From assembly GCA_964035545.1 (NCBI GenBank), contig OZ037773.1, forward strand, positions 7,429,251 through 7,493,250: a stretch of 64,000 nucleotides of DNA, given 5' to 3'. This stretch comes from Bugula neritina. Its lineage: Eukaryota; Bryozoa; Gymnolaemata; Cheilostomatida; Bugulidae. Within the stretch, counting starts at the first letter, position 1; each line of letters opens with the position of its first letter. The position numbers were made by a program, and so were the translations under genes. The notes under the pieces are model-generated. The model searched no databases. It was not told where the DNA came from and was given only the letters and a program-made list of their open reading frames with translations. Positions 31,288 to 63,313 of the stretch are shown piece after piece.

Positions 31288-31313
31288 TATTATTAATATT
31301 ACACTGAAATAAC

Positions 31314-43727: not shown

Positions 43728-44143
43728 TTAATAATCTTCTTCAGTTTTAAAGCATGTACAGACTGAGAGAGTAAAGAGAGGCATTGAGTATCCTTTCCTC
43801 TTACAGTGTCTCCTGCACACACTTTTCTTTGTTGTGAATAGTAAAGCCTCCGCAGTCGAAGCTATATATTGAAAATAAATACTAGATATTTATCTGCAGC
43901 ATGAAAGCAAAATAGCATAATATCATATCATTCATGTGACTTTTTCGAAAAAGATAATGCAAAAATGGCAGCAATGTTAATAAAAATGCTTCAAAATGCA
44001 TTTTTTATAGTTTAATTTTATGATGTGGTACTGTGTAAACATAAACTGTATATTTTATTGTTGACATGAGAAAAACAAACTTTCTATTTACCCAATGAAA
44101 TGATGACAATGATTACAGTTACTAGTAAAGCAAGAAACTTCAT
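43728..44143 (-). CDS. Secreted cysteine-rich peptide P1 (four-Cys CS-alpha-beta-like)
   Basis: Coding exons 44092-44143 and 43728-43861; 61 residues. Exon 1 encodes a 17-residue signal peptide start (MKFLALLVTV..) and ends in phase 1 at GTAAAT. Exon 2 encodes the mature part with C-x3-C-x14-C-x1-C and the tail FKTEEDY. The mature peptide is basic. A leader exon ends at 44430 with donor GTAAGAAAC and a TATA-like TATATATAA lies at 44491-44500. CxxxC plus CxC is the half-pattern of defensin-like CS-alpha-beta folds; the first and fourth cysteines of that fold are absent, leaving two possible disulfides. Closest relatives: the genes at 59092 and (decayed) 51785. Role unknown; antimicrobial or venom-like function is inference. 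Confidence 0.75.
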
Positions 44144-44298
44144 AATGTATCTTCGGTCTACAAATATTCAAGAAAACATATTATATTTAGTCAGTTTATT
44201 GAAATGTTGCATACATGTGAATGAATTTTTATCATGTTTTGTCGACTATATTTATATATGTTTAAAAATAAGTTAACAAACAAAAATAACAAGTTAAT

Positions 44299-44317
44299 TT
44301 ATATATATATATATATA

Positions 44318-44383
<66 letters not shown>
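44299..44383. repeat. (TA)n microsatellite in P1 leader intron
   Basis: About 80 bases of TA repeats interrupted once by CAC, between the P1 leader exon and its signal-peptide exon. Confidence 0.93.
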
Positions 44384-44385
<2 letters not shown>

Positions 44386-44429
44386 TTTTTACATACTGAT
44401 TGACATTGAAAACGCATTTAGTTTCTTAC

Positions 44430-44500
44430 CTGGCGTTAAACAGTGTTGAAGATACACGGTCTGAATAATATTAAAACACTTCCACTTATGTTATATATAT
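44430..44500 (-). promoter_or_regulatory. P1 promoter and leader exon
   Basis: TATATATAA at 44491-44500, then about 60 bases to the leader donor at 44430. The donor GTAAGAAAC is shared with the leaders at 52350 and 59878. Confidence 0.5.
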
Positions 44501-44509
44501 CTTTTGATT

Positions 44510-46370
44510 TTGATTATTTTATGCAGCTTTTAGTTGATTGGTCAATAGCTAGACTAACAAAGAGATGAAAAACAAGCATAAAAACTTATAGTGATGAGGC
44601 ATATTATGTAGATAGATACAGGACACTATTCTCTTGATTTTGTATGTAAATATATTACTTTCTACGTATGAACTGACCAAAACGTATCAATTCTTTGGAA
44701 ATTGTTATGGCAATATAATCACTTTTATTTTAAAATAATATTTAGGAAGGAATCAGTTAAATGTTGCTATTAGTCACAATGCAATAATGTTTTGTTTGTA
44801 GAGTATCTATTGTTTAGAAAAAAAGTTGTGCATGTCTTGTCACTCACATATCACAATTGATTTGAGGGTAATTATTATAAATATCAGCTAGAACAGTAAT
44901 GATTTTTACGTGCCTACAAAACTCTAGCCTGTATAAAAAGTAAAATTATCTACACATCTACGACAAAGTATGATGAAACACTCTGAATGCAGTTTTATTT
45001 CAACAATGCAACGATGCAATGCTCTGAATATCAAAGTTAAATTATTAAAGTAATAATATGATTTTCATTTGTATTGCATGATTTTAAATAGAAGTAGTAG
45101 AATAAATGATATTCATTTGTTATTGATTTAGTTTGTTTCGAAATATGTAATAGATTGATGATATCCTACCCTAGCAAAACGACAACAAAAATACAAAAGC
45201 AAGCACATGTACTTTATTTCAATTATGGTTGGAAATTTTTATTCTAAGCATAATTATGAAAGAAATAAAAAATATACAGTAAATTTTTTAGCACCTAAAA
45301 TTTTAGTGTTTAAATAAATTTTCCTTCAATCATTCTTCATATTTCATACCTAAATAAGTTAGCCAAGGCAGCTTCTTAAAGACCTCTCAAAGTGATTGCT
45401 GTTTCAGCTAATATTTATAATAACTAAACTAAAATTAGTTGTTATCAATTGACTAAATATACAAAGCTGTTTCTAAACAATACATACTTAACTAATAAAA
45501 CAATAATGACTTGTGATTAATAGTAAGAGTTAACTTCCATTTATCAATAGCTTTGTGAAGTTAGAAATGATTATATTTCCGTAATAATTGACTTTGAATG
45601 TCGTCAGTTTATACGTAATAAGTCAAAATATTTTATCAAACTTAAAATACTGCTGCCCTGTAGCTATATAGTACACCTTAACTGATTTAGATGCATGATT
45701 TTTCAGTATTCTTTAACGTCAGTCGACCTATTAACCAATCAACAGAATGCTCTGTGTAATAATTCAAAACAAAAAATACACAAAGTAGAAAATTTTCTGC
45801 TATTTATAAGTGTGTGTTTATAGTTTACAAGTTTACAGGTTTACAAGTTTTGTCTTTAATATAAAAGTCAAAACATTATAAGCATCATATCTTAAAATTC
45901 AATTAAATTTATACAAAATACAGTTTTACACATGTTCATTAATTTTTCTGCTTGTTCTACTGGTATTGTTTCATTAAAATAGTATGATCATATGGTTTTT
46001 CGAAATAGGTTCATATGTTCATAACAAATTTTAACAGCTACAATGGCAAAGGCTTAGAGATTCACATCAAAAGAAAGTGTGTGCAAGAGGCATTGTGATA
46101 AGACTGGGCATTCAAAACATAGCTTGTTTCTTGAATTCTAAAAATGTTTTCACACTGAAGAAGATTGTTTGACTTAAAAATTGATTGCTGTAGCTTCTTG
46201 GAGATTACAAAGTTTGTATTCACTAAAATATTTTTCGACGTTATAAATGCTTCCTAAAAATAAAGCAACTAACTTATTTGAAAAACTTTTCACCTGAGTG
46301 ACATGATCACATTATACACACGCACACGCTCTTGCAATGCAATTTTTAAATGAGCTTTTGGATGTGCTTC
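44510..46370. other. AT-rich spacer in the peptide cluster
   Basis: No exon of the peptide type, no other gene and no clear mobile element was found. Short TTTACAAGTTTACAGG repeats lie near 45825-45848. Confidence 0.45.
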
Positions 46371-46926
46371 AGTGCTTATAATCAAGTGAAAACTTAATTT
46401 CTTATTATCAGTAACATTGATGTTCAAGAATGCTGTTTATATATTATGTATATCAGTTTTTTTAATGAACCAGTTATAGTGACTCTAGTATTATTATATT
46501 ATATTTTTAGTTAATTGGAATTTACGTGCATCTTACAAAGTGCAGGGTGGGCGTTGTTTTACAACCAAGTTTAAATTTAGAGAAGATCAATAACACAATT
46601 GAGCTAAAGTTTCCAAACAATATAACAATATAAACTATTTGCATAGTGTATAGTGTAATATAGTGCACAAAATTCTTTGAAATACTTACTAATCAAACAC
46701 ATATATTGCAATCAGTTATTCCGTTTTATACCCTAAAACTCTAAATTGTCGCTATAATATATAGTATTGAATGATGATGCTAAAAATTGTTAAATGAATA
46801 ATTACTCATTTTATTACAGAAAACCTACAAGCATTACAAAATATTTTTGAAAATGTTCTAGAGGCAAAAACTTTTGAAGAAACTAGGATATTATACATTC
46901 GAAACTATCAAAAATGAATTTCAGTT

Positions 46927-47488
46927 TTAAGAAAGATATCTTATGTCTTGGTTGATACAGCGGCAACGTCCATCTGAGTATCTGTACTGAGTGTAACGCT
47001 TCTTGGTACAGTCAGAAGCGCATTTCCTTAATCCAGACCATCTGGGACAATGAGCTTTCACCACTGTAACTTTGAAAGTAATATTACTGATAATATATAA
47101 ATGCCAAACATTAGAATAAAATAATATTGTTGCTTCTGTGTTTGAGTAAATCAGCTTGATGGATATGAAGCATGTGGAATTAGTATCAAAACCCATAGAT
47201 ACTATTTTTATATGTTATCTAAGAGTTAAGCTTAAAATTTCAAGCTAATATTTATATCAGCGTAAAGTTCTATTTTATTATGATATAATATTATGTTATA
47301 TATAAAAATATATATAAGTATATAATTGCATGCAATGAGTATATTTAATAATAGCTAAAACTATCACTATTTTAATAAATATATGTAAACACAATAAATT
47401 ACTTTATGCCATTTGTATTTTTGAATGATTTTAACTCACTCAATGTGCTGGTGACCATCAAACAGATAAGGACAGGCAGGAATTTCAT
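46927..47488 (-). CDS. Secreted cysteine-rich peptide P2 (five-Cys)
   Basis: Coding exons 47440-47488 (16-codon signal peptide start, MKFLPVLICLMVTS.., phase 1, GTGAGT) and 46927-47063; 61 residues. Mature pattern C-x8-C-x3-C-x14-C-x1-C, so the cysteine equivalent to C4 of a six-Cys defensin fold is replaced (a Tyr sits nine residues after C3). An odd number of cysteines leaves one unpaired or available for a dimer. Strongly basic, with KKRYTQYRYSDGRCRC near the end. Leader exon ends at 47867. Tandem paralog: P3 at 49984. Confidence 0.8.
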
Positions 47489-47866
47489 ATTAATTTCTTT
47501 ATCTACAAACTTATATATAGTCAAAGATTATTTTAATGCTGCAGATTAAATCATGCTTTATGCACATAGCGAGAGTTGGTTATAATTTAAAAGAAAGTTA
47601 ATAGCAAATTTATAATCACCTCGAAATTTATTTTCTCGATGTTTATTTTATAGTCAACTTAATGAAGAAGAAAAGCTTTTATTATGCATATATGGCTACA
47701 CTAGATTCCATGTTTTACCAAGTTTTAACTAAGCCATTATTTTAAAAAACACATCCAATAGGCATTCGATCTATTTTGAATCTTCAAACTAGATACTATA
47801 ACTTCGTAAAGATACAAAATAATAAAATAAACTGAATAAAAAACATGATTCTATAACCGGACTTAC

Positions 47867-47947
47867 CTGTATGTATTTTTTACAGTTGCTAGTAATGAGG
47901 GTATAAATGCTAGTGCAGTGGAGTAGACACAATTGAAGCTTTATATA
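47867..47947 (-). promoter_or_regulatory. P2 TATA box and leader exon
   Basis: TATATAAA at 47940-47947 on the minus strand; leader donor GTAAGTCCGG at 47866. The distance of 73 bases is almost the same as in P3, P5 and P6. Confidence 0.7.
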
Positions 47948-47994
47948 GTCTTTTCAAAGATATATGTTGTCAGTTGGCTAATTCCTTTCAGGTG

Positions 47995-49405
47995 TGTCAT
48001 GAGGTGTAGACATTCAATGTCCTAATAAAACCTTATATTAAATTAGAACAGCTGTGTGCTTTAATATAATGCTTTTTTCATTGTTTTAATACTGCATGTA
48101 TATTGAATATGTATAAAAATGCAATATTGAATCACTTTAAAATTTCGGCTCATTTTGTGTCAACAGTATTTATTTAAAAATAATCAAAATTTGTGTACAC
48201 ACTCAAAACGAATACCAATAGAAATGTCATAATTTTAACAAATAAGTTTGCCTGTTTTTGAATCATGTAGCTACAGTAATTTAAAGAAGCCTTTTTTATA
48301 CTATGCCCATAAAAAAACATTAGCCTACTTCCCAGTTTATAATCGTTTTGGAGATGTGTTTTATAAGGGCATTGTCGACCAAATCTCATATATATAGGGA
48401 TTAGTCACACAACACAATATTTTATATAGATCTCTTGCAATACCTTTGCCTATCAACTTATAGGTGATATGGATAATCTAGAAAAATAAACATGAATCTT
48501 GGATTATATGACTAGAGTAGACTAAATTTACTTTAATCACAATTTTCTGTATAGCTAGGCTACTATAAAAACATTACCCGGCCTACAACAAAATTTTATC
48601 ATAAAACAGATAATGTATTATTACATTGATATAGAAATTCAGTTAACTTGAGTTGAAATAACGGACTATATTGCAAGTATTGTTTACGTCGTTGTGCAAT
48701 AAATAAGCGATAACCATGACCTATAGTTGGGTTTTTTAAATATAAATTAACAAACAAGCTGCAAAATTATTCCCATGTTTTTAGAAGTTTTAATGTTGTA
48801 AAAGCACTTGGTAGTCTGTTTAGAAGAGAGAATGCCGATAAGAGGGAAAGCGACAAATTTTTACCAACTATTCTATATCGCAAACTGAATTATATGTGTA
48901 TTTGAAAACAAAAACCAATGCAAAAATAATTCTCTTAGAATCAAACAGCTGAAAGGGTTAAAAATACTCCATTATGTTCTTTTATAATAAATGACAAAAG
49001 CATTTCAGTCAACATTCTATAACATCCAAATTAATAACTCAAACAAAATAAATGTTTTATACAACATTTTCTTTAATTTTTCAAAATAATATATTATCGT
49101 CACATGTGTCAAATGAAGATCGGTTACAAAAATATCTTACAATTTGAATGCTTTATCATATTATAGCTTATATTATAAACTATATAATGTAATAGTTTTT
49201 CTAGGGCCAACATCTTCACAATCACAACAACTGTGCAGTATATATAGTTTGCAAATTATTCTATTGAATATACAAGCTTTTCAGGTTTTTCAGACATAGC
49301 AGTTTATCAAAAAAAAAATAATTCAATGCATGATAAATATTACTTAGCTACATGTTTTGTGGAGTTTATGATTGAGTCAACAATTAAAATTAAATGTGTT
49401 TTTAG
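47995..49405. other. Spacer between duplicated blocks
   Basis: No gene recognised. TTATAAGGGCATTGTCGACC..ATCTC near 48361 resembles a segment near 61880, so it may be a low-copy interspersed repeat. The frame at 48174-48389 lacks coding features. Confidence 0.4.
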
Positions 49406-49983
49406 ATGTGTACTAATTCAGGGCTTATAATAAGTGAAAACTTAATTTTTATTATCAGCAACATTGATGTTCAAGAATGCTGTTTATATATTAGATTAGT
49501 TTTTTAAGGAACCAGTTATAGTGAATCTAGTATTAATTATTATATATTTTTAGTTGACTAGAATTTGTATGCATTTTACCAAGTGCAGGGTGGGCATTGT
49601 TTTACAATCAAGTTTAAATTTAGAAAAGATCTTAATAACACAATTTAGCTAAAATTTCCAAACTATCAAACAAACGATTTGAACATTTTGTTTGATAGAG
49701 ACATTTGCGAGTGTATATAGTGCACAAAATTCTTTGAAATATTAATTTTAAAAATAAAGCGGATAATTATATATCAATTAGGCATTTGGTTTACCCTAAC
49801 TCAAAATTGTCACTATATAGTATTGAATAAGGATGCTGAAAATTGGTAAATGAATAATTACTCATTTTATTTTAGAAAACATACAAGCATTACAAAATAG
49901 TTTTGAAAATTTTCTAGAGGCGAAAAACTTTTGAAGACACTATAATGTTATACATTCAAAACTATGAAGAATAGATTCCAGTT

Positions 49984-50642
49984 TTAAGAATTAAGATGTG
50001 CTACGTCAAGGCTCCTGCAGCGGCATCGCCCGTCTAAGTATCTGTACTGAGCATGGCGTTTTGTAATGGCGCATTTAGCAGCGCATTTCTTTAATCTAGA
50101 CCAGCTGAAACAAGGAGCTTTCACCACTGTAGCTTTGAAAGTATAAATATTACTGATCATAATTGACAAACATTAAAAATTAGAGAGATGTTGTTGCTTC
50201 TGTGTTTGAGTAAATCAGTTAGATGGATATGAAGTATGAGCAATTAGTATCAAAACACAGAAACTATTTTTTGTATATTATCTATGTAACAGTTAAGCTT
50301 AAAGTTTCAAGCTAATATTTATATCACCGTGAAATTCTATTATGTTAAAATACAATATTATGTTATATATAATATATATATATAAATAATTGCATGCAAT
50401 GAGTAAATTAATATAATTATAGTTGAAAAAAGATCACTATATTTTCATATATTTTCATAATTTCATAAAAGTTATTTCCTGCCATCTGTAGTAGGAAAGA
50501 ATAAGGCAGTTGTGCAAGAGGGTTGGGTTGTCCTGCATGTGATGGTGGCATTGCATACATATAATTGTAAATGTAGTTTTTATAGCTCACCCAATGTACT
50601 GCATGTGACCATCAAACAGATAAAGACAGCCAGAAATTTCAT
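49984..50642 (-). CDS. Secreted cysteine-rich peptide P3 (five-Cys)
   Basis: Coding exons 50591-50642 (17 codons plus one base, MKFLAVFICLMVT.., GTGAGC donor) and 49984-50126; 64 residues. Mature pattern C-x8-C-x3-C-x15-C-x1-C, the same odd five-cysteine set as its duplicate P2 but with one residue inserted after C3. Basic (KRHAQYR, GRCRCR). C-terminal tails of the two copies differ completely after the last cysteine, which suggests relaxed constraint or positive selection there. Confidence 0.78.
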
Positions 50643-50992
50643 AACAACTTCCATTATCTACAAACTTACAGTTAAAGATTATTTTAATGCAGATTCATGC
50701 TGACACATAGAAAGAGTTAGTTTCAAAAATTATTATCGTCATTTAAAATGAAGTCATTTGCAAATTAATTTATCTTCTTGATGTATGATTTATAGTTAAC
50801 TTATTGACTAAAAAATCTTTTATACTGCATATGACTGCTACTCATTGCTATGATTTACAAAGTTTCAACTAACCCATTCTATTTAAACCACAAATGATAG
50901 GCATACTATGTTGAATTTTAAAGGTAATTTTTTAACTTCATAACGGTATAAAACAAATGAAAGTAAAAACATGTTTCCAGAACCGGACTTAC

Positions 50993-51071
50993 CTGTAGAT
51001 ATCTTTTACAGTTGCCGGTAGTGAGGGTATAAATGCTAGTGCAGTGAAATTAACACTGAGACCTTTATATA
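50993..51071 (-). promoter_or_regulatory. P3 TATA box and leader exon
   Basis: TATATAAA at 51064-51071; leader donor GTAAGTCCGG at 50992. Near-copy of the P2 promoter. Confidence 0.7.
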
Positions 51072-51184
51072 TAGATGTATGTTATCAGTTGGCTAATTAT
51101 TTAAAGGTGTGTCACGAGTTATGAGCATACAATGTTCTAATAAAAAATCATTAAATAAGAGCAGCTGTGCCATTTAATATAATG

Positions 51185-51320
51185 CTACTTCCATTGTGGT
51201 GTAATGGCTAGTGCACCTGCTTGCAAGCCGGAGGTCTTTGGTTTGAAAATTGGTGGGAGAAGAAGTTTTATATAGTGTTCTTCCCTGGTTACAAAATTTA
51301 GCACTATGCAAAGTTGATCG
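51185..51320 (+). mobile_element. tRNA-derived SINE-like sequence, family 2
   Basis: A tRNA-like head GTGGTGTAATGGCTAGTGC (A box) with GGTTTGAAAATTGG (degenerate B box) and TTGCAAG in the anticodon position. A related piece lies on the other strand at 61455-61565. Too diverged to be a functional tRNA. Confidence 0.6.
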
Positions 51321-51784
51321 TAGACTACAAGTAGCTAAACTTGTAATATAAATCACACAACCTAAAGCTACTTTTACTCCATATGTGAGGTCTGAAAATG
51401 CAGTTGCTTCAAAAAAGTTGTACGTGGGTAGCCAATCAGATCTAATGTTCCAAGTTGTTGTTAATCATTGCATGAATGATTTATAAATTTTACCATTCAT
51501 ACATAAACCTTCAATTTGGTTAAATTGTTAAAATTATAGAATGATACTTATTCTCAATGTAAATAAACTAGGGAATGAAAAGATTGAGAGAAATCATGTC
51601 GTAGTAAAGTATTTTTATTTTCAGCTATGACAATTGATCTTATATAGAGCTCATAGAAATTTAATCTTGCCATTTAATAAGTTTAAGTATGTATTGTTTG
51701 GGGAACTAAATTATATAGTGGCTTAGTCAGTAACTACTTACCCTTTATTCATGCTTACCGTGTTGTACGCCGTAACAGCAAAGA

Positions 51785-52142
51785 TCAGCCATTTTTACAA
51801 ATTTTACAAATTTTACAAATTAAAAAACTCCACGCCGCCTTCACTGAAGCTATTAAACAATGACTAGCTAAAAACTTTATATAACTTATTGTGAACAAAA
51901 GGATATTGCAATAGATGCTGTTAATAATTATCATACTAAGAAATTAACTTCTTAACGATACAGTTAGAACTTGGATTTGATGCTTATATTTTATTGAAAT
52001 TAAATTAAATGTGTAAATATAAAGTATATTTTATAATTAAAATGATATATAATATTTTCTACTTACCTAATGAAGTTATGGAAACAATAGCTGTTACCAA
52101 CAAAGCAAGAAACTTCCTATTGACTTTGTGGTCTACAGGCAT
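51785..52142 (-). pseudogene. Decayed cysteine-rich peptide gene P4 (P1/P7 subfamily)
   Basis: The signal-peptide exon (52067-52118) matches P1, but the codon in the ATG position (52116-52118) reads AGG. An in-frame ATG at 52142 exists upstream, but in the paralogs that position lies on the intron side of a GTAG acceptor. The second exon (51785-51849) starts like the paralogs (acceptor TTAATAG, phase 1) but ends after 20 residues. It has lost the normal C-x3-C and C-x-C; it contains three tandem TTTTGTAAAA-type decamers giving CKICKIC. The leader donor GTAAGAAAC is still present (52341-52349). Probably dead; a short product from the upstream ATG cannot be excluded. Confidence 0.65.
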
Positions 52143-52364
52143 TTAGTGGAGTAAATTATTTGCTGAAAGCTTGCTGAAATATTGTACAGAAATAAGTTCA
52201 TTACTAATTTTTTGAAGCAAATTAAAAAAATATACCGTATATATGCAAAACAATTACAGCTGAATCCATGGTATACTCAAAAACATTTTTTTAGTAGTTC
52301 AAACTGTAGTGACTTAAGCAAAGGTGCAAAAAGAAATTTAGTTTCTTACTCACACTACAGCTAT

Positions 52365-52420
52365 TATATATATACAGTATATATATACAGTATATATATA
52401 TATATATATATATATTATAT
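52365..52420. repeat. (TA)n / TATACAG microsatellite
   Basis: TATATATACAG repeated, then pure TA, upstream of the P4 leader exon and in the position where a TATA box would be expected. Confidence 0.85.
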
Positions 52421-52429
52421 GGTTCATAT

Positions 52430-53310
52430 TACTTAATTTAGTACACAATGTACATCTCTAGTTTTTTGATTGTTTTTTCACAGTTTGGCTGCTAATGTAT
52501 ATAGTTTTTTAATTAAACTGATAAAATATCAACAAATACAACCGAACTAGCAAGTTTTTTTTCTCATTATTTTTGATTGTCTGTGTTTTATTCTAATTGT
52601 TTAGTAACATTGGGTGGGTAGTGAGATAAACAAGCGTAATATGATATTACTGAACTAAATTATATGCCTTTGAACAGTCAGAGTAAATGCTGAAAAATGC
52701 ACAATAGGAATAAAAGCTTTTGAGACTTGTTTGATGACTTTAACTTTTTTATGACATTTTAGAAAGCATAAAACTAATTTAACAAAAAAAATAAAAATCT
52801 TTTCCCAAAACGAGATACAACAAGAAAAGACTTTTTTATCAAAATGTATTGTTTTTTGCTACTCTCTCAACAAATTTTTTATTTAGTAATACTTTAATGC
52901 CTGTTGATGAATTTTAGATGCATTCCTTTTTATTTACTCTATTATTATTGGCAGCTTGAAATTATCTCACAATTATAATTTCTTCAAATCATGAGGGCCA
53001 GAATTGCATGATAATAAAACTTAGCATAATCACAAAACGGTGAATATATTTCAAAACTAAATTTAGCTATAATTTATGAAAAAACATACTAAAGCCATCA
53101 TTAAATAGCTTTATTTATAAGCATAAAGATAGACTAAAGAATAAGGCGCTTGTGTTCATATTGCATTGAATTTTATTGTGGAAAGCATGAAAACTACACA
53201 GAAAATAATCAACATCATAACTAATAATTTAAATTTACTTAAATGACTAAAAATTTTGTTAATTATAGCAGTGAGAAAGTCATGTTTAGGACAAGGTTAG
53301 ACAGTTTAGA
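52430..53310. other. AT-rich spacer
   Basis: I see no gene, repeat array or element here beyond low-complexity A/T. Confidence 0.4.
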
Positions 53311-53313
53311 ACT

Positions 53314-53687
53314 TTAGTGGTGCTTCTTGTAACCCTTCTTGTGGCATTTGCATACTTTACAGTTCTGCTTGTTGGAATTCTTGTCTCTGCAAAACTTTTT
53401 GCAGCCGTCCTTCTTATCAGGACATTTATCATGAGCAGCTAGAAAATACAATTCAGCCTCATAACTTTGACAGCGTATTATTAATAAGAATCGCAGGATG
53501 ATTAATTGTGTAACCAGTTTATATATATAAGCTCTAAGTTTGAGGCTATAAATAAGAACTATGGATCACACATTTCCTTATAATTTGAATAAAAAAGTCT
53601 TTTAATCATGTATTTCAGAAGAATTTTCAACTTACCCAATGCGCTGATGATCAACATGGCAAAGATAAGTATAGCAAGAACCTTCAT
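53314..53687 (-). CDS. Secreted six-Cys defensin-like peptide P5
   Basis: Coding exons 53636-53687 (MKVLAILIFAML.., phase 1, GTAAGT) and 53314-53438 (acceptor TTTTCTAG); 58 residues. Mature pattern C-x6-C-x3-C-x9-C-x2-C-x1-C, which fits the CS-alpha-beta defensin consensus in number and order. Very rich in lysine, with a His/Lys tail (CHKKGYKKHH) that could bind metal ions or be pH-sensitive. Leader exon ends at 53949 and TATATAAA is at 54023-54030. The C5 loop (x2) is shorter than in most defensins. Antimicrobial function is inference. Confidence 0.82.
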
Positions 53688-53948
53688 ACTGAACTTGTTT
53701 CTAAAAAGTAACAGTTGAATATTATAAATATGTGTCACTTCTAAATATGACATTTATATTTACTTAAAAATATTTTTCTAGTTAATTTTAAAAATCACAC
53801 CTGTTTTAAAATTATTCTTACGCAGTTTGTTTTCTCTGTACAATTGCATGCCATTACATAGTTATTTGCTGCTACTATTATACAAAATATCATATATATA
53901 TTTGTAAGAAAAAGAATTAAATTAGCTTCAATGTTATAAGTAGCTTAC

Positions 53949-54030
53949 CTATTGTTTTGTTCACTGTGGCAATCAGTTGTCAGAAAATGAACACAATTGC
54001 TGTAAGAGTGTAAGCTGGTGCATTTATATA
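53949..54030 (-). promoter_or_regulatory. P5 TATA box and leader exon
   Basis: TATATAAA at 54023-54030, leader donor GTAAGC at 53948; 74 bases apart. Confidence 0.7.
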
Positions 54031-54039
54031 CAATTTTCA

Positions 54040-56240
54040 ATCCAATTCTGTGCCAATGCAAACTATTGAGCAGCGACAATTTGATTGGCTAACAACTGCC
54101 AACCACAAAACACAATTGCTTCAAGTTCTATTTATAACTTTAGTATATTCTATTTATAAACAGTTTTACTCTTTAATTTAGTGCTTTGATTGTGACTGAG
54201 TAGACTAATTGTCACCAAATAATTATTATTGTCAGATTTTCTCAGTTCTGCAAATAAAAGCTGACTCTAAAAAAACGTAGCACAAGAAATGTGCATATGA
54301 AAGCTGTATTATGCGTATAGTTGCATTGTGACTGGCTGAAACATGCATGTAACGATGCAAATTAGTTTTCAGTGGTGCATTCGGTATAATTATGATATAT
54401 TTCAGGCTTTACTGAGCATGTTCTCTGAATGCGATAAAGAAAGTTTTATTACATAATTTTTGTATTAATATAAAAAGTTGGCAAACAAATCACATTTATA
54501 TAAATCGATTTTTGATATTTGTACATCTCTGCAAATTATTTCTATACTTTGCAGTATAAATTGTGATTAAAATCCAAAATAAATAAATTTAAAAAATATA
54601 AATTATAGTGGTTCTGACATTCAACATTACAATTTTTTTCAGATCCAGTCTGTAATTAGTTCACTTGTCAAAATATGTTTAGTATTAGATTTTTGCAATA
54701 ATTTCAGATGCTGATTATCACAAAACTTTAAGTTCTTTTGAAATTCGCCAAACAAATATATAGACATTGCTATATTAACAATTTGCTAACTTAGTTGGAA
54801 ATATTAATTGATAGTTTATCTTTAGTTACAAAATAATAAACCCATATGTGTCGTTTTGAAAAAAAGATTAGAACACTTTTTTACCAATCACAATATAATG
54901 GATTATAAACTTATGATTAGGCACTAAACCCATTATTTTTCAATACAGATTAACTAAATATTTATTTTAGTAAATGATGTTGTAGTAAAACTCCATGATA
55001 TGCTAGATAAACAGTATAGTCTAGAAAAAGCAGCCTCATTTACAAAGAGTTACTGATGAGTGCAACAGCATGCAGTATGCAGTTAAGGTAAGTAAAAAAG
55101 ACAGCTTTCAAATTTGGTTCTTATGCTTGCAGGTGCATCTACGGGTAACAAAGCACCCTATGACAGGTGTCGCAAGTCTTCTATAAAGGTAGATATGATC
55201 ATCAACAGATGCATATTTTTGTGGATTAGGATTAAAAACAGGTGACTTAATGTCATGTTTATCTTCCCATGAATGATATTTTCAGCTTCGTAGAAATTTT
55301 GTTAAGTTGTTTTAATGTAGTTATAGCTATAAATATGCAAAATATCAATTCTTGTTCAAAAACCAAAAAAAGGCAAACTTGTGAAGTCAAGAAACCATGG
55401 CTAAATTAAATATGAAAATATATATTTTATTGTACTACTTCTTTTTATAATCAGTATACATGGAGAAACAGTCTCATTAATTTGCAATGAATAAAGGACT
55501 TAGATACGCCACCCTATTGTTAAATGTTGATATAAATCACAAAATGGCCATCAACAAATGCTTGCATGATAATTCTGCACCAATTAATTTACCATTGCAA
55601 TCATTTTGATTCGGTTGGTTATAACATCCACTTATTATATATTGCGGAACAATATTTTTTATACTACTACTTTATTTAAAACCAGTATATATATATATAT
55701 AATATGAGGACAACCCCATTTCCTTGCAATTATAAAGGAACTTAGATTTACATTTTCATTGTTTAAATTTGGTATACAATACAAACTGATGATCGATAAA
55801 ATGTATATGCTTATAACTTGTAATCAGTAATTTATTTAGATAAATTTTGAGCCATATTATAATAATGAGGAAATGAAGATTGTATATCCGTGTCATTTCC
55901 ACACATTTTATAGAGGTTAGTATTTAACCATATCAGCTGCGACTATGCATATGGCTGATCTACCCTCAACTGACTTAAAACATTTACCTGGATATTTAAA
56001 AAATGACAAGAGCCTTGTAACAATTACTTTAAACACTGCAGCAAAAACTGAAAATCCACCTTCAGTAGGTCTAATATACCATCAGCTTTTATTAAAGTAC
56101 TAATGAAAACAAGTATAACGCAATTTTTTTATGACAGGAAAACTTTTTAAGGACAATAGAATTATAACTTCTTACTTTTGGCATTTATTAGCCAATTAAC
56201 AGGACACTTCAAAATACTAAAGTCTATAAAATTTGAGTAA
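54040..56240. other. Spacer between P5 and P6
   Basis: Divergent intergenic region of P5 (-) and P6 (+). No convincing gene. A donor/acceptor-like pair around 55087 and 55131 brackets an open stretch, but no family fits. AT-rich. Confidence 0.4.
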
Positions 56241-56246
56241 GAATAG

Positions 56247-56324
56247 TATATAAAGGTTCTAGTTTCTTTTCTACTTCATGGCAATATAACTCCAGCTTCT
56301 AATAACTTCAATAAACACTCGCAG
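56247..56324 (+). promoter_or_regulatory. P6 TATA box and leader exon
   Basis: TATATAAA at 56247-56254 and leader donor GCAG|GTAAGA at 56324; 70 bases between them, as in P2, P3 and P5 on the other strand. Confidence 0.7.
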
Positions 56325-56871
56325 GTAAGAACTGTTAGGTAAATGTGTTATTTCAATTCAATACATATTATATACATGTAGGTAATCACGCAATTGAAGA
56401 TTTAATTAAACATTTAACATATTATTTTGACACTTGATAACTGGTTTTCAATAATAATTAGACCACAAACTTTATAGATTTAGAAAAAAAAACTATTGTG
56501 TATTGGAAGGGGTTTTCATCAACAAAATTATCATGTCTAAGAAACAAACCTAACTTTTCTCAAATTTAATTAATTTCATATATTAGAAAGCTGGCGCTTA
56601 AAATTAAATTTAAAAGCTGTGTAATAAACTAAGAGACTTTTTTATCAAAAATATTCATGCATATTGAAATTACCAGCTGTAAAGCTACTAATATTTAAAG
56701 TAATATTAGCCTAAGCAGTTTTGTTGAAATATTTAGGAATGCATGTAATTATATGTTTTCATAAGCATATATTATTATTATCTAATATATATTATTATAT
56801 AATATATATTATTATATAATATAAAAATATTATTATGTTCTGTTATAACTGACAACTCTTATGTGTGCGTG

Positions 56872-56944
56872 AGTATAAATTTGTGTATCTAAAATATTTA
56901 AGTATAAATTTGTGTATCTAAAATATTTAAGTATAAATTTGTAG
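56872..56944 (+). repeat. 29-bp tandem repeat ending at P6 acceptor
   Basis: Two full copies of AGTATAAATTTGTGTATCTA + AAATATTTA and a third partial copy whose AGTATAAATTTGTAG supplies the splice acceptor of the signal-peptide exon. Confidence 0.9.
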
Positions 56945-56957
56945 AAACAAATCCAGT

Positions 56958-57416
56958 ATGAAGGTTGTTGTGGCGCTTATGTTTGTTATGATGGTCACCA
57001 GCACAATGGGTAAGTTGGAAATAATTCAGAAACACATATTATTTTAATAATAAAATCAAATTTTGTATTCATTATGCATCTTTTTAAATATTATAGAAAC
57101 AATACAATTATATTAGCAATGAATATTAAGTTTTAAATGTAATAATTTACAAAAATAATTTTGTATATAAGACTCTATCTTACTTGCATGTGTACACTAT
57201 TATGCCATTGTAACACAATTTAGCTGCATAGAAATTTATTTATTAAGTATATTATCATATACTATATTTTTAGCTTTAGCATTTAGGTATAATTCTGGAT
57301 GCCCTCAGACAGTCTCGAAGTGCAAGCAGTTTTGTATAAACAGAAACTTTCCTGAGTACAAATGTCAAAACAGATGGTGCAAATGTGACAAAAATCGGAA
57401 TATAATAGCAACATAA
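56958..57416 (+). CDS. Secreted six-Cys defensin-like peptide P6
   Basis: Coding exons 56958-57009 (MKVVVALMFVMMVTS.., phase 1, GTAAG) and 57274-57416 (acceptor TATTTTTAG); 64 residues. Mature pattern C-x6-C-x3-C-x9-C-x4-C-x1-C, the full CS-alpha-beta consensus; in known members disulfides join C1-C4, C2-C5 and C3-C6. The C3-C5 distance is 14, the same as in the four-Cys members. Moderately basic. AATAAA at about 57564. First plus-strand gene of the cluster. Alternatives with this scaffold are defensin, ion-channel blocker or another secreted effector; sequence alone cannot tell. Confidence 0.84.
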
Positions 57417-58011
57417 GTTCTTAAATGTTGACATTTAACCTGAGAATAAGTCTGCTCCCCATTCCACATCATTTCAATAATTTCATCGAATTTATACAGT
57501 TGAGATACTTATGAGATTACTTATGCTGTAATTTTTTATCATGCAATTCTTTTGTTTGTCCACAATAAAAGCAGGAAACTATATAGTTGTCATTGCGCTA
57601 ATTTATTTGTTTGAACTTTTTTGCAAAAAAATACTGTCTGATTGTGCCTAAAAGCTTTTTGGTCTAAAAGTGGCTGTATTAATATATGAGACTGAGAAGT
57701 GCACCTCACAGTAAATGTTATTCACTTCCATTTGATAGAAAGTGAGAGCAATTTACTATTTTGTGAATAACATGTTTGTCATTGCATTAAGAATTTCTGT
57801 GAATAAACTATAAAGTAGCATAACTCCAATATTATTTTCAGTACACCAGAATAAGAAATATGACTAAAGTTATCAAATCAAAATTGAATACTAGTGAATA
57901 AAACAACCAACAAGAAATATATAATATATATAGACCCAAGGACTAAACTATATTCGAAATGTTTTTGAACATAAAAATGGTTATACCCTAAATATGTATA
58001 ATAGAGAAAAC

Positions 58012-58536
58012 TATTAACAATATTGGTGACGGACTACTCAGTGAAAAAGACAACAGGAAACACATTTTACTTCAACTGCCTTATAAAGGAGTAACAGGAG
58101 AAAACCTAATCTGCTCCCTCAATAAATTAATTACAGACTCTTTTCCAAATGAACTCAATGCCCGGATTATATTTAAAAGAACCCCCTTAAGTTCACATTT
58201 TAATCTCAAAGATAAAACCAATAAAGAACACATACACAACCTAGTCTACAAAATAACCTGCCCTGAAGCTATACCTGTCAACAAACATATGTAGGCGAAA
58301 CTGGACGTCGCCTATCACACAGGATACATGAACATTGCCATGACATCAATTCCAAAATTTATCAACACATCTCCACCACTAAACACGGAAACGTATCAAT
58401 AGACAATGTAACAGTTCTAAATCATTCATTTAAAGGAATCCACCATCGAAAAGTAGCCGAAGCTCTCTACATTAAACAAATAAAACCGCAACTTAATAAA
58501 CAAAATTACTCCATACCACTAAAACTATACCAATAA
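58012..58536 (+). mobile_element. Penelope-like element, 3' part with GIY-YIG domain, frameshifted
   Basis: The first frame (58012 to about 58275) reads LLQLPYKG..LSSHFNLKDKT..LVYKITCPE, typical of the link between the Penelope reverse transcriptase and its endonuclease. The frame then shifts by one and continues as TYVGETGRRLSHRIHEH to a KPQLNKQNYS end and stop at 58534-58536, a GIY-YIG nuclease domain. The 5' RT region is absent and the frame is broken, so it is a dead truncated copy. Confidence 0.85.
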
Positions 58537-58788
58537 GCTCCACACTACACAACTCTTACATAGTTTCACTAATCCTTGCTATTTTTTTATATTTGGATAT
58601 CTATTTTTTGTCAATTCTAATTTTTTTTATGCAAAAATCAGTATAATTTTTGACATGCGTAATATATAAATTCAGATTATCTCCCTCAGTTTCAATAATT
58701 TATAATAACTGCCACTCTCTATTCTTTGTGTCAAGCTGCATAGTGTCTAAAGTAACGTAATAATTTTTGAATTTCATTCATTGCTACT

Positions 58789-58826
58789 CTGAAGATGGGT
58801 ACAACGTGGTACCCGAAATATCAGTA
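58789..58826 (+). ncRNA. Hammerhead-like ribozyme core downstream of the Penelope copy
   Basis: CTGAAGA (58789-58795) fits the hammerhead CUGANGA. It is followed by a perfect 6-bp stem GGGTAC/GTACCC (58797-58802, 58809-58814) and GAAA (58815-58818). One extra T precedes the stem, and I cannot build a convincing stem I, so activity is doubtful. Penelope-like elements are known to carry hammerhead motifs, which supports the identity. Confidence 0.45.
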
Positions 58827-58874
58827 TAATTACTTTGCCTAATAAAGTAATAATCAACAATGTTTCTCGTATAC

Positions 58875-58879
<5 letters not shown>

Positions 58880-58920
<41 letters not shown>

Positions 58921-58932
58921 ATATATATAATA
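58880..58932. repeat. (TA)n(TG)n microsatellite
   Basis: TA repeats switching to TGTGTG and back to TATATA. Follows the 3' region of the Penelope copy, a common site for its termini. Confidence 0.9.
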
Positions 58933-59091
58933 TATGCTGCTCTATAGTAATGGCACACTCTAGTTTTTTAAAACTCATGAATAAATTTATTGTCTAAGAA
59001 ACAGGTAATACATATATATTATATAATATTATTTAGGATAAACTTTGTAATGCGCAAAAATATAATTCAGCAGCATTTTTACATCAATGAG

Positions 59092-59560
59092 TCAACAATT
59101 TGTATAATAATCTTCTTCTGTTTTGAAGCATTTGCACACAGTGAGAAACAAGCTATGCTTTGAGCGCCCCATACTATCACAATGTTTCCGGCATACACTC
59201 CCAGATGTGGTGAAACGGAAGGCTTCTGCCATAGAAGCTATTAACAAAATAATGTACTGAATATATACCAACAAGATATTTCATGTCTATCCATATTGTT
59301 TCTTTGTGACAAAGAAATATTGCAAGAAATAGAAGTAGTAATAATAAACATATCTAGAAATTTATTTGATATAGGCAAAATTAAATTTTGGATTAGATTC
59401 TTATGGTTTCATTAAACAATTTATTGTCAAAATGGGACCTAGTAACATATGGGAATGTAAAAAATATTTTATTATTATTGACATAATATAAAATAGTTAT
59501 CTACTTACTCAATGATGTTATTGTGATAATGGCAGTTACAAATAAAGAAAGTAATTTCAT
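59092..59560 (-). CDS. Secreted cysteine-rich peptide P7 (four-Cys core plus C-terminal Cys)
   Basis: Coding exons 59509-59560 (MKLLSLFVTAII.., phase 1, GTAAGT) and 59092-59237 (acceptor GTTAATAG); 65 residues. Core C-x3-C-x14-C-x1-C, then FKTEEDYYTN and a final Cys just before the stop, absent from P1. An upstream ATG in frame lies before the usual acceptor and is probably intronic. The leader exon ends at 59878 with the shared GTAAGAAAC donor; TATATAA at about 59921-59928. Sister of P1 (same F-K-T-E-E-D-Y tail). The terminal Cys suggests dimer formation; this is inference. Confidence 0.75.
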
Positions 59561-59934
59561 CTTGAATCTGTGATCTACAAGCATTCAACTAAATAGATTA
59601 ATTTTTGAAAACGTGTTGAAATTTTGTGAACATGTGCAGAAGAAAGTTGGAACTTTGATCATTGAATATTTATATAGTCATTGCAAAATAAAGAAATAAA
59701 ACAGTATATGTATTACTATATGTAATAATTTTTTTGCTTTGTTTAATGGCCAAACAAAATTTCTATAATCATGTTAAACTTATCAAAAACCATAATTGAG
59801 CCTGCATGTAATATTAAACATTAATCATTTAAATTAACAATGTAGCCCAAGGAAAAATTATACGTTTAGTTTCTTACCTAGTTTATGTTCAGTAGTGCAT
59901 ACGAGTTGTTGTAGTAAAGATTATATACACATTG

Positions 59935-60570
59935 GGTATTGATAAAATAACTTCTGCGTTTAAATAGTTTTTGGTCTGAATTATTACATATGTAGCTTTC
60001 AATTGCTTGGTTAACCACTCTATAAGAATGGTAATAAAAATAATGATTATCTATATAATAAAATTTATTTAACTAACTTTTTTGCTGGTCTTCAAAATTT
60101 TATTGCCATAAAGCATTTAGTTCTCTAAACTTCAGAATTATATAATTTTATATAATGCAACAGTCACATGTCTTTGCGGAAGAAGGTTTGCACAATCCAC
60201 CAGGTGATTTACATTGTACAATAATTTTTGAATTATTCAAAGTAATATATGACCACATGTCCTAAATAAAGGTCAACTGAAAAATAAAAAATAATCTCAT
60301 AAAAATAATGCTTTATTATATGTATATAATATATTATATATTATAATATAATCATACCAGGATTAACACTATTACAATTCTTATAATGCTTATAATAATA
60401 GTGTTGCATGGAAAACACATGTTATTGCATTTTAACGTTCAGTCTCTTTTTAGAGCTGTAATACTATATGCTAACAATTAAACCTTCAAACTCTGCAATC
60501 ATTTGAAATAAATGCACATATAGCAAATCAAGATGCAAATTTTAAATTGATTATCATTATATTACTTACT
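59935..60570. other. AT-rich spacer right of P7
   Basis: Nothing recognised. TATATAATATATTATATAT-type low complexity near 60320. Confidence 0.4.
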
Positions 60571-60655
60571 TTACCGACTTACTTAAACTGACTTACTTAA
60601 CTGACTTACTTAACCGACTTAACTTAATTAACATAACTTGATAACTTAACTGACT
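60570..60655. repeat. ACTTACTTAACTG tandem repeat
   Basis: About six imperfect copies of a 12-14 base unit (ACTTACTTAACTG, ACTTACTTAAACTG, ACTTACTTAACCG). It directly adjoins a LINE 3' end. Confidence 0.85.
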
Positions 60656-60661
60656 AATTGT

Positions 60662-60805
60662 TAATCATTTTAGGCCCTGCGCTTTCACTAGCCTCTGCTA
60701 TGGCGCACCATTGGGCCTCATCATTACCTCCTTTGGGTGATCCCTTGTATTTTTTTTTAATTTTATGTATATATGTATATATACATTAATGAAAATAAAC
60801 AAACA
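60662..60805 (+). mobile_element. LINE 3' UTR fragment
   Basis: GCTATGGCGCACCATTGGGCC resembles GCTATTGCGCCATAGGCCC in the LINE end at 5350, and both finish with AAAATAAACAAACAAA. Only the 3' UTR remains. Confidence 0.65.
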
Positions 60806-60809
60806 AATA

Positions 60810-62470
60810 TTGCTTTAATAAACTTTAAGCAATATATTTTACGATGTTCTGTTATATGTACTCTAAAAACATTTTTTACTTTAAACATCATATATGGTAT
60901 GTTTTTGATCTTAATCTGCAAAAGCATACAGCTGTTGATGATAATTATTATATCTACTTTCACAAAATATTTTTGACACATGTTGTAGGGTAGGTAGTTG
61001 TTACCTGTGGCACCTGCAAGCATTAGAACTCACTTTCAACACTGTATTTTTGCACCTATAACATTAGCTCTGTATTCCTGAGCCCGTACTTCTATTTGGT
61101 ATCACTCATTGCTCCAACGAAACACTTTCCTCAGCAAGTTGCACCGAAGTTATATATTTCTCCCTAACATCTCAATACTAATCCAAATTTGAAACAATAT
61201 TTTAATTTTATTTAACTGAATTTTGAATTCATGCTGATTTATTGCAAATATCTCGATTATTTTTATATTTTACTTGATTGCATTTTGAGATCATGCAAAA
61301 ACTTTGTTCAAAGATTATATTTTTAAGATGATGCTTTTATAGACAATGCAGAGAGGTGAAACTTAACTTCTCACTTAAACAAAATGGAAATTCTGAATAA
61401 AACAAACCAAATTTATCAACAAAGCCTAATTTATGGTAAAAAAATTAGCTGAAGGGAGATTTGGGGTTCAATATAAGAACTGGGATTCAAACCGAGACCT
61501 CTGGCTAATTGCAAGCATGCAAAGGTGCGCTTATGGCCATAACACGACAGGGACTACTGCATGGCTAAACGCAACGTACTATAACTAAGCAAAAAATATG
61601 CATATCAATCACTGTTTAACTCGAGTATTTTTACTCTGATCACATAAAACAAAGTTTTTTAGAAGCTAAAGTTTTCAAAAAGTGACAAATTCAGACGCTC
61701 ACCAAAGTATTACTTACATAAATATAGCATAGGTCAAACGCTATTTCTAAATTTATTCAACACGTTTACAATATATTGAAATGATTTCTATTGCAAGTTC
61801 ATTTACTGGTTTGACTTGAATATATAGCAATAAACACTCTTTTTTCTTACACAGTTGCATTGTCTTCATCATGCTTTATTTAAGGGCATTGTCCACCACA
61901 TGTCTCCAATGTGAAGATTAGAAATCAATAGTTTAAAGGCAATATATCATAGGTTATCTAGCAACATACTGAAATCAAACCTAGGTATGCATCATATAAT
62001 CACAAGTTAGGTTCCCTGGCTATGTAATATCTTGCATTATTTATAGCTTTATAAGTTTTTTAAACTTTAGGAAACTGATAAAAGCACTATTTGATAGGTC
62101 GATTACCATTGGGATTAGTCATTCATCTCTATTATTAAAAACCATAGAGGTGATGTACCTTTATTCTTGCTATATGTCACTATAATATCTGTAAATTGCT
62201 AACATTTAATGAAATATGACATCTAATAAATTTTTATATGTATGCAATGCAACATAATGGAATCCAATATTTTGGTTGAAAAGCATTTGACATGACGTAT
62301 TTACGCATTATCATTTGATTTAAGTTTATCGTAGCTTCCATCAATATATTGTTGGATATTCAGTTAAATGGAACAAACTGAATAAAAATCATGAGGAGTT
62401 GGTGTTAGGTTAATATAACAATTTCCTGATGTATAGGTAGCTGTTAGTCAATAAACTTAAAGTCACTAGT
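60810..62470. other. Spacer between P7 and P8
   Basis: Apart from the SINE-like piece at 61455-61565 and a short segment near 61880 shared with 48361, I see no genes or elements. Confidence 0.4.
61455..61565 (-). mobile_element. tRNA-derived SINE-like sequence, family 2
   Basis: On the minus strand TGTTATGGCCATAAGCGCAC (A-box region) and GAGGTCTCGGTTTGAATCCC (B box) give a tRNA-like head; the same head is at 51185. The intervening anticodon arm is enlarged, so it is not a functional tRNA. Confidence 0.6.
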
Positions 62471-62478
62471 TATAGGCC

Positions 62479-62486
62479 TATATAAG
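62479..62486 (+). promoter_or_regulatory. P8 TATA-like box
   Basis: TATATAAG about 340 bases upstream of the P8 coding start. A leader donor (GTAAAA near 62523) is only plausible. The coding exon's acceptor TTTAACAG ends at 62769. Confidence 0.5.
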
Positions 62487-62825
62487 TGATGGATGTGTAT
62501 CAATTGACCAAAACCACAAAGCAAGTAAAAATTTACAAGTATTTCTACTTATTTATACATAAAATACTAATACTAATTACACAAATACTGATTAGGTTAT
62601 ATAGTTTAATAGGTTTAGCAATGCTGAATAGCTTTTATAACAATTTATGTTACATATAAAGCATATAAATGTATATTAAATGAGTGTAAAATCATTTAAA
62701 ATAACAATTAGTCAGTGCTCAGGAATGTGACTAATTTATATACTATTTGTTGTCTTTCAAATTTAACAGCCTACCGTCACGAGAGAATCTACAATCTGTG
62801 TGCAATATAAAGAAACAAATTGAAG

Positions 62826-63313
62826 ATGAACATTGTGGCGTTACTGTTAATTGCCCTGGCTTCTTTCTGTACATTGGGTAAGTTAAATGCCTTATTTATA
62901 TGTTTCGCTGATCATTAAATGTTTTTTATATTCAGGTTTTTAACAAGTTTTGTATTTAATAGTATTAAAATATCTAAGAAAAATAGCATAGCAGAAAACT
63001 TACACTTTTTTAGCTGAGTTATGCATAAAAAAAAGTTATTATAGAAGTAATATTATCAATTGAACACTTGTATTTGCAATATTGTATGTTTACTAACTAT
63101 TAAATATTTGAATAAATTTAAACATGCAATAGTATATGTATGTATATATTGCATTGATGTTGCTGAAATAATTTCACTGTTTTGTACAATTTTCAAACAG
63201 CATCGGCTGCAACTGGCTTCCAACTAAAATGCATAGCAAAGTGCGCAAAGAAAAAGCGTTATGGCTATTCTATGTATGAAAGTATCTGTGTATGTGTTCC
63301 ACTTCCAGGATGA
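62826..63313 (+). CDS. Secreted cysteine-rich peptide P8 (four-Cys)
   Basis: Coding exons 62826-62877 (MNIVALLLIALASF.., phase 1, GTAAGT) and 63201-63313 (acceptor TTCAAACAG); 54 residues, the shortest intact member. Mature pattern C-x3-C-x14-C-x1-C with AKKKRYGYS after C3 and the tail VPLPG. It lacks the TEEDY tail of P1/P7, so it is a separate four-Cys lineage. Basic. Same phase-1 intron between signal and mature parts as all other members. Confidence 0.75.

Follow-up and report, generated by a model that had tools for sequence, protein, structure and literature searches.

We describe a cluster of genes for short cysteine-rich peptides in the window, a 64,000-nucleotide stretch (7,429,251-7,493,250) of chromosome 9 of the bryozoan Bugula neritina, and follow the family through the genome (215.8 Mb searched; chromosome 9 is given as 10.88 Mb in the Bugula neritina genome note, PMC11480708). 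In the reading that we favor and think rather probable, these genes belong to a large B. neritina family of predicted secreted peptides, likely defensin-like effectors on the cysteine-stabilized alpha-beta (CS-alpha-beta) scaffold, in several of which the pair of the first and fourth cysteines (C1 and C4) was lost, probably more than once. Seven intact genes were found, P1, P2, P3, P5 and P7 on the minus strand and P6 and P8 on the plus strand. All seven have a signal exon ending in phase 1, followed by a mature exon.

Signal-exon profiles show the members with four, five and six cysteines (Cys) to be homologous at the level of sequence, despite divergence of their mature parts. Nine six-Cys signal exons, those of P5 and P6 included, were built into a DNA profile; run over both strands of the window, it had as its first eight matches P5, P6, P1, P2, P3, P4, P8 and P7, where P4 is a decayed gene. 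The exons outside the profile were found with E values of 3e-9 (P1), 1.5e-8 (P2), 2e-7 (P3), 1.8e-5 (P4), 1.4e-4 (P8) and 0.027 (P7); the next-best site in the window had an E value of 3.2, compared with 6.7 for the top site of the reversed window. Because this six-Cys-only profile finds all four- and five-Cys signal exons of the window first, we regard the members as one homologous family, as an earlier note on this DNA had proposed. A profile of four-Cys signal exons only recovered the six-Cys genes P5 (1.2e-9) and P6 (1.4e-4), and a DNA profile including all seven window signal exons matched, at E<1 in the window, those exons and P4 (52129-52061) only. Conservation of the signal part contrasts with divergence of the mature part. 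A test of the mature parts speaks against common descent: with cysteines masked, nine of the 11 four- and five-Cys mature parts scored no better against the six-Cys set than their own shuffles, the exceptions that beat more than 95% of shuffles being loci L015 (2 of 200 as high) and L047 (9 of 200). Since the masked mature exons are mostly without signal, the case for homology depends on gene structure and the signal exon. In this test, and in the protein-tree rows, residue 18 of P2 and P7 was Ala, where the DNA encodes Ile and Thr, respectively; the alignment row of locus L041 represents a decayed copy, for which the frame containing its cysteines was used.

The earlier note had described seven intact genes and one decayed gene of shared architecture, and exons and profile confirmed them; a second decayed copy, a P7-like mature exon at 46037-46174, had been missed, so that the window holds two decayed remnants. 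A signal exon of 17 residues had been claimed as well, which holds for most genes; that of P2 has 16, and the exon alone falls short of a whole signal peptide. Judged by eye, the signal peptide extends beyond this exon in most members, with a predicted AxA-type cleavage (AS.AEA^) in the mature exon, some six residues from its beginning. P2 and P3 are a tandem duplication of about 3 kb, with pieces 81-90% identical, and the four-Cys profile gives the signal exon of P4 a higher score than the six-Cys profile does. The P7 leader, LQQLVCTTEHKL, matches the start of the protein EB796_007746, annotated in another B. neritina assembly, at 11 of 12 residues. Gene prediction in that assembly used a published transcriptome as hints, according to its description (PMC7576161). 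This match supports a putative three-exon model for P7 and falls short of transcript proof for P1-P8. For P8, no leader exon could be placed with confidence. In the following list of features, the leader donors of P1, P2, P3, P5 and P6 come from reading of the sequence only.

43728..43861, minus strand: P1 mature exon, 4 Cys, STAEALLFTTKKSVCRRHC...VCTCFKTEEDY
44092..44143, minus strand: P1 signal exon, MKFLALLVTVIIVIISL, phase 1, donor GTAAAT
after 44430, minus strand: P1 leader-exon donor
46037..46174, plus strand: decayed P7-like mature exon with two stops; nearby signal exon not found
46927..47069, minus strand: P2 mature exon, 5 Cys, Y at the C4 position (codon TAC)
47440..47488, minus strand: P2 signal exon, 16 residues
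after 47867, minus strand: P2 leader donor
49984..50132, minus strand: P3 mature exon, 5 Cys, Y at the C4 position (codon TAC)
50591..50642, minus strand: P3 signal exon, phase-1 donor
after 50993, minus strand: P3 leader donor
51785..51849, minus strand: P4 decayed mature exon, 20 codons and then a stop, without the CxC end
52061..52129, minus strand: P4 decayed signal exon with flanks, start codon lost
53314..53438, minus strand: P5 mature exon, 6 Cys, spacing 6-3-9-2-1
53636..53687, minus strand: P5 signal exon, within a 123-nucleotide stretch 76% alike with that of P6
after 53949, minus strand: P5 leader donor
after 56324, plus strand: P6 leader donor
56958..57009, plus strand: P6 signal exon, phase-1 donor
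57274..57416, plus strand: P6 mature exon, 6 Cys, spacing 6-3-9-4-1, KCQN at C4
59092..59237, minus strand: P7 mature exon, 4 core Cys and a C-terminal Cys
59509..59560, minus strand: P7 signal exon, phase-1 donor
59878..59914, minus strand: 3' part of the P7 leader exon, donor after 59878, translates LQQLVCTTEHKL
62826..62877, plus strand: P8 signal exon, phase-1 donor
63201..63313, plus strand: P8 mature exon, 4 Cys, M at the C4 position

The genome survey consisted of several single-protein searches (one query carried Ala for Asp at its first residue) and one family search, and its counts are lower bounds. Counting as complete those models whose fetched locus offers a start codon, phase-1 splice sites at donor and acceptor, and an uninterrupted mature exon, we found at least 28 six-Cys, at least two five-Cys and at least eight four-Cys genes. 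The six-Cys models comprise an array of 18 copies (L018-L035) at 4.43-4.57 Mb of chromosome 9, 2.9 Mb from the cluster and with outliers nearby, together with L036, L038, L039, L042, L045, L082, L083, L084, P5 and P6; the six-Cys mature exons L037, L043 and L046 lack a signal exon of their own. P2 and P3 are the five-Cys genes, with a possible third, L063 (chromosome 9, 3.195 Mb), whose donor is doubtful. The four-Cys genes are P1, P7, P8, L012, L015, L074, L091 and L047. Further members lie on chromosome 9 (contig C9; 3.14-3.26, 4.33-4.35, 4.59-4.61 and 7.15 Mb) and on the contigs C4 (17.4 Mb), C2 (31.3-31.4 Mb), C3 (2.85 Mb) and C6 (3.11 Mb). Decayed copies occur on contigs C1, C3, C6 and C9, and L041, L068, L072, L076 and L077 look decayed. 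At L037/L038 (chromosome 9, 4.421-4.422 Mb), one signal exon is followed by two differing six-Cys mature exons, about 0.7 kb from each other, and a single gene might splice to either of them. Two four-Cys genes, P0001 and P0002, are annotated in the second B. neritina assembly. P0001 (genotype S) shares 85% identity with P7 in the aligned mature part, which is low for one species; the difference could be that of a paralogue, of an allele or of a cryptic species. The proposal of a lineage-specific family is consistent with a profile search of the protein database, in which two of 369 candidates belonged to it, both from B. neritina, in a search that covered no other bryozoan genome; the array precursor used alone gave no candidates there.

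Re-reading of the mature exons bore out the cysteine counts given earlier: six in P5 and P6, five in P2 and P3, four in P1 and P8, and four plus a terminal one in P7. The same is true of the distance from C3 to the CxC motif, 14 residues in P1, P2, P6, P7 and P8 (15 in P3 and 12 in P5), and of the residues claimed for the C4 position, Y in P2, F in P1, M in P8 and L in P7, to which Y in P3 can be added. Precisely C1 and C4 are missing, the two cysteines that are bonded together in the known fold, as had been pointed out. C2, C3, C5 and C6 were invariant in 18 of 18 aligned rows, an invariance that should be discounted in part as a product of selection, because rows, once picked up by similarity, were read with a pattern requiring CxxxC and CxC. 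Among 20 tabulated members (excluding L043, L045, L046, L084, other array copies, L063, P0001, P0002 and decayed copies), both C1 and C4 were present in 10, C4 alone was absent in two, both were absent in eight and C1 alone in none; a Fisher test on C1/C4, in which related genes are treated as independent and from which no proof is drawn, gave p 0.0007. A spacing of 6-3-9-4-1 was observed in 10 of 13 six-Cys rows, and a C3-C5 spacer of 14 in all nine four-Cys rows. The C4 site of the latter is occupied by F, L, M, L, V, L, L and L, bulky and apolar in eight of the nine, and by R in P0002; R is also found in L091. Absence of C4 is best explained as substitution at a fixed position rather than deletion, to judge from these alignments.

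For the six-Cys members, the proposed CS-alpha-beta-type scaffold was upheld by profile matches to solved peptides. A combined profile reached coprisin (1.3e-6) and cobatoxin (3.7e-6), and the best solved relative of the six-Cys-only profile was alpha-KTx 19.1 at 1.3e-4. The framework C1..C2xxxC3..C4..C5xC6 is present in P5, P6 and 11 further six-Cys rows and absent from P1, P2, P3, P7 and P8, which are homologues of family members only. An AlphaFold model of four-Cys P7, made with four-Cys rows only, had a predicted local distance difference test score (pLDDT) of 83.1, a predicted template modeling score (pTM) of 0.60 and the order strand-helix-strand-strand. It superposed on BmBKTtx1 with a root-mean-square deviation of 1.3 A over 30 columns (TMt 0.76), on kaliotoxin (1.8 over 36) and on the plant defensin PhD1 (2.3 over 40). 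With moderate confidence, P7 is predicted to keep the CS-alpha-beta shape. Several results count against this view: the four-Cys-only profile had no significant match among solved structures (best E 0.12); Foldseek with the P7 model found nothing at E<=0.001 (best E 0.8); the best VIA-align Z (5.2) went to a Sarcocystis lectin fragment, no defensin; three of the five P7 models had a mean pLDDT below 54; and the model of six-Cys P6 was poor (pLDDT 59.7). Structure prediction, the check suggested at the outset, gave a model compatible with the fold for P7 and a poor one for P6.

Family databases gave a weaker picture. PF14866 (scorpion toxin alpha-beta) had no match over its cut-off in the genome, the array peptide scoring 19.8 bits versus 27. 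Three of 18 members matched PF01097 (best E 8.9e-4), and two of 18 matched PF00451 (best 5.3e-5), family cut-offs not being part of this output. Four weak Pfam families were matched by four-Cys rows, one member each, including Defensin_2 (0.015) and WSC (5.5e-4), and the WSC match was taken as chance. NCBIfam yielded weak matches only, the best being actinodefensin (E 0.011).

Constraint differs between parts of the family. In the 18-copy six-Cys array, 13 copies encode an identical mature peptide, and mean differences per synonymous and nonsynonymous site in the mature exon were pS 0.0925 versus pN 0.0104; introns and flanks showed differences of 0.116-0.133. Such identity despite an intron difference of about 12% suggests either strong purifying selection or exon-limited conversion. 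Four-Cys pairs had nonsynonymous distances (dN) of 0.29-0.54 and synonymous distances (dS) of 0.75-2.06, the latter near saturation; P2-P3 had dN 0.27, dS 0.42, dN/dS of about 0.64 and an intron distance of 0.26; P5-P6 had dN 0.66 and dS beyond measure. In the codon analysis, the L037 row repeats the mature exon of L038. From these values it follows that the six-Cys array is strongly constrained, that the four-Cys genes are not evidently decaying and that P2/P3 evolve fast. The net charge was +3 to +10 in 21 of 21 rows, with the mature start guessed by rule. That the four- and five-Cys genes are functionless copies under relaxed selection seems unlikely to us. Decayed copies do lie beside them (P4 and 46037-46174) and elsewhere (the five decayed-looking loci named above), and the dN/dS of P2/P3 fits this idea. 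However, start, splice sites and stop are kept in P1, P2, P3, P7, P8, L012, L015, L074, L091 and L047, dN is below dS in all four four-Cys pairs, and four-Cys genes are annotated in the second assembly.

How often C1 and C4 were lost was judged from unrooted trees and DNA matches. In the signal-exon DNA tree, where the L037 and L038 rows are an identical signal exon, six four-Cys genes form one clade (99/98), and P2/P3 fall outside it; in protein trees, seven four-Cys rows group with bootstrap 85-92. Each other aside, the only DNA match of P2/P3 at E<=1e-4 among the compared loci is six-Cys P6 (P2 with P6, E 5e-8), and no four-Cys gene reaches this level. P8 matches L047 upstream of the signal exon (DNA, E 7e-9), a segment that may be a repeat, because part of it recurs within the locus of L047. 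Searched alone, L047 gave weak matches to the six-Cys array (E 0.09-0.3) and none in the P1/P7 clade at E<=1. On these affinities, P2/P3 probably lost C4 separately, the P1/P7 clade lacks both C1 and C4, and P8/L047 may be a third case. Of the stepwise change first envisaged, one homologous family with C1 and C4 missing from some members is borne out; the single ladder from six to five to four cysteines through P2/P3 is weakened by the P6-only DNA match and by the signal-exon tree, where uniting all C4-less genes in one clade gives a borderline result in the approximately unbiased (AU) test (p 0.054). Protein trees are compatible with the ladder; parallel loss appears to fit better.

It is also possible, at a clearly lower probability than the reading favored above, that a six-Cys ancestor lost C4 once (a P2/P3-like stage) and then C1 once, with all four-Cys genes descending from that line. 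Several results fit such a history and tell against repeated loss. Descent of the four-Cys genes from one origin is not rejected by the AU test (p 0.36 on protein, 0.19 on DNA), nor, on protein, is a clade of all C4-less genes (p 0.25, 0.28). When L082 and P8 are omitted, the eight remaining four-Cys rows form one group (76/88). Furthermore, four-Cys L074 matches six-Cys L037 (DNA, E 1e-13), and therefore DNA matches alone do not fix the grouping. Arguing against one loss are the borderline signal-exon result, the affinity of P2 for P6 and the weak pull of L047 toward the array. For the protein trees of these tests, one loop residue each of L082 and L083 was omitted to align C4; the second tree was made without L082 and P8.

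We infer loss rather than gain because six-Cys genes are the majority and the relatives outside the family have six cysteines. The opposite course, a two-disulfide, CSH-like bryozoan ancestor whose six-Cys descendants added C1 and C4, is improbable in our assessment. The 6-3-9-4-1 spacing is close to that of six-Cys relatives elsewhere. Moreover, six-Cys genes prevail among complete models (28 versus eight and two, one array making up 18 of the 28), it is the six-Cys-only profile with which solved animal CS-alpha-beta peptides are matched, and the TAC (Tyr) codon at the C4 position of P2/P3 differs by a single step from one for Cys. Gain would nevertheless agree with the four-Cys ancestor proposed for the whole superfamily (PMC5116183, PMC11561630), and the present trees are unrooted. 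The parallel would be the suggested origin of the superfamily from myxobacterial two-disulfide CSH peptides of the AdDLP type, described as having four cysteines, CxxxC...CxC, and two expected bonds (PMC5116183). CxxxC and CxC only, without C1 and C4, are also found in P1 and P8, and P7 has the same core with a terminal Cys. The likeness is one of description; the AdDLP form was proposed to be ancestral, whereas the Bugula form stands beside six-Cys paralogues and so is probably secondary.

Among known systems, invertebrate CS-alpha-beta defensins of the insect or ancient invertebrate type (coprisin, sapecin, micasin) share the pattern C..CxxxC..C..CxC with P5, P6 and the array, and resemble the family in being short cationic precursors with a predicted signal peptide and in profile sequence matches. 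Unlike them, members with four or five cysteines are without C4, or without C1 as well, and most members have no visible propeptide between signal and mature part. The closest sequence match of the six-Cys profile is scorpion alpha-KTx, and loop spacing is close to that of short-chain scorpion toxins. This raises the question whether the peptides are ligands of ion channels, of the animal itself or of others, and no general antimicrobials, to which we assign a low probability. A short n-loop and a c-loop of 4 would suit channel ligands, and such loops are common to many defensins. No venom gland is known in B. neritina, and no venom context is known for these peptides. KCxN at C4 occurs in P6 only, 12 of the 13 six-Cys rows lacking it (the match of L036 is at C2), and the four-Cys genes have no C4. 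Still, the best solved relative being an alpha-KTx peptide speaks for channel binding, as does the KCQN of P6, since channel activity has been linked to this motif (PMC5116183).

Homologous defensin paralogues whose cystine frameworks differ, recognized as here by conserved gene structure, have been described as lambda-Zytrisins in Zymoseptoria (PMC5234102) and DvirARP in Drosophila (PMC11116330). In the former, six cysteines are reported to be kept and the CxxxC/CxC spacing changed (PMC5234102); in the latter, C2 and C3 were lost by deletion and C1-C4 kept (PMC11116330), whereas in Bugula the opposite pair is absent and the core kept. Altered frameworks were thus known before from these accounts, with other cysteines affected; an animal family with the C1-C4 pair absent in natural paralogues appears to be new. 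Big defensins have been reported from the bryozoan Flustra (PMC7203481). Among the matches listed in our literature search, there was no paper on bryozoan CS-alpha-beta peptides.

Several other features of the window were recorded. Between P6 and P7, a coding-like remnant at 57992-58533 (plus strand), whose first 100 residues have no Pfam match, is perhaps a mobile-element endonuclease. An unbroken open reading frame at 31308-35264 (plus strand) belongs to a Ty3/Gypsy-like retroelement and includes domains for reverse transcriptase, RNase H and integrase, and a coding-length minisatellite with several open frames on both strands lies at 18411-19246. Segments at about 51198-51260 and, on the opposite strand, about 61480-61545 look tRNA-like by eye and are possibly derived from short interspersed nuclear elements; ARAGORN and Rfam reported nothing in the window, these segments included.

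We further infer, from sequence features, an antimicrobial function for the peptides. The signal peptide would be cut off at the AxA-type site within the mature exon, leaving a cationic peptide that would fold through C2-C5 and C3-C6 bonds. In four-Cys members, the N-terminal strand (FRFTT in P7) and the bulky apolar residue at the old C4 position may replace the disulfide non-covalently, and an odd cysteine (in five-Cys P2/P3, or the extra terminal one of P7) would permit dimers or partner binding. Microbial envelopes would be the most likely target. Under this scheme, the six-Cys genes would be conserved and amplified, and the four- and five-Cys copies would diverge. Legume NCR and aphid BCR peptides are likewise secreted cysteine-rich families, and their hosts carry bacterial symbionts, as does B. 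neritina. NCRs are reported to have four or six cysteines, and BCRs, unlike the Bugula peptides, six or eight (PMC6594739); the likeness implies no common descent. Symbiont control of the kind seen in legumes and aphids would be, next to channel binding, a rival to antimicrobial action. It is a far-fetched idea, to which we give very little credence, that the family is an animal counterpart of the legume NCR system, with an amplified and conserved six-Cys defensin and fast-diverging four- and five-Cys derivatives that lost the disulfide two to three times independently, use an N-terminal strand and an apolar C4 plug, and control the bryostatin-making symbiont.

According to published proposals, CS-alpha-beta peptides descend from a two-disulfide form (PMC5116183, PMC11561630), and the Bugula family lets the reverse step be tested. 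With six-, five- and four-Cys homologues in one living animal, replacement of the bond becomes testable by synthesis and refolding. The family occurs in the host of the bryostatin symbiont, and it offers a natural test of how far the defensin fold can be stripped down.

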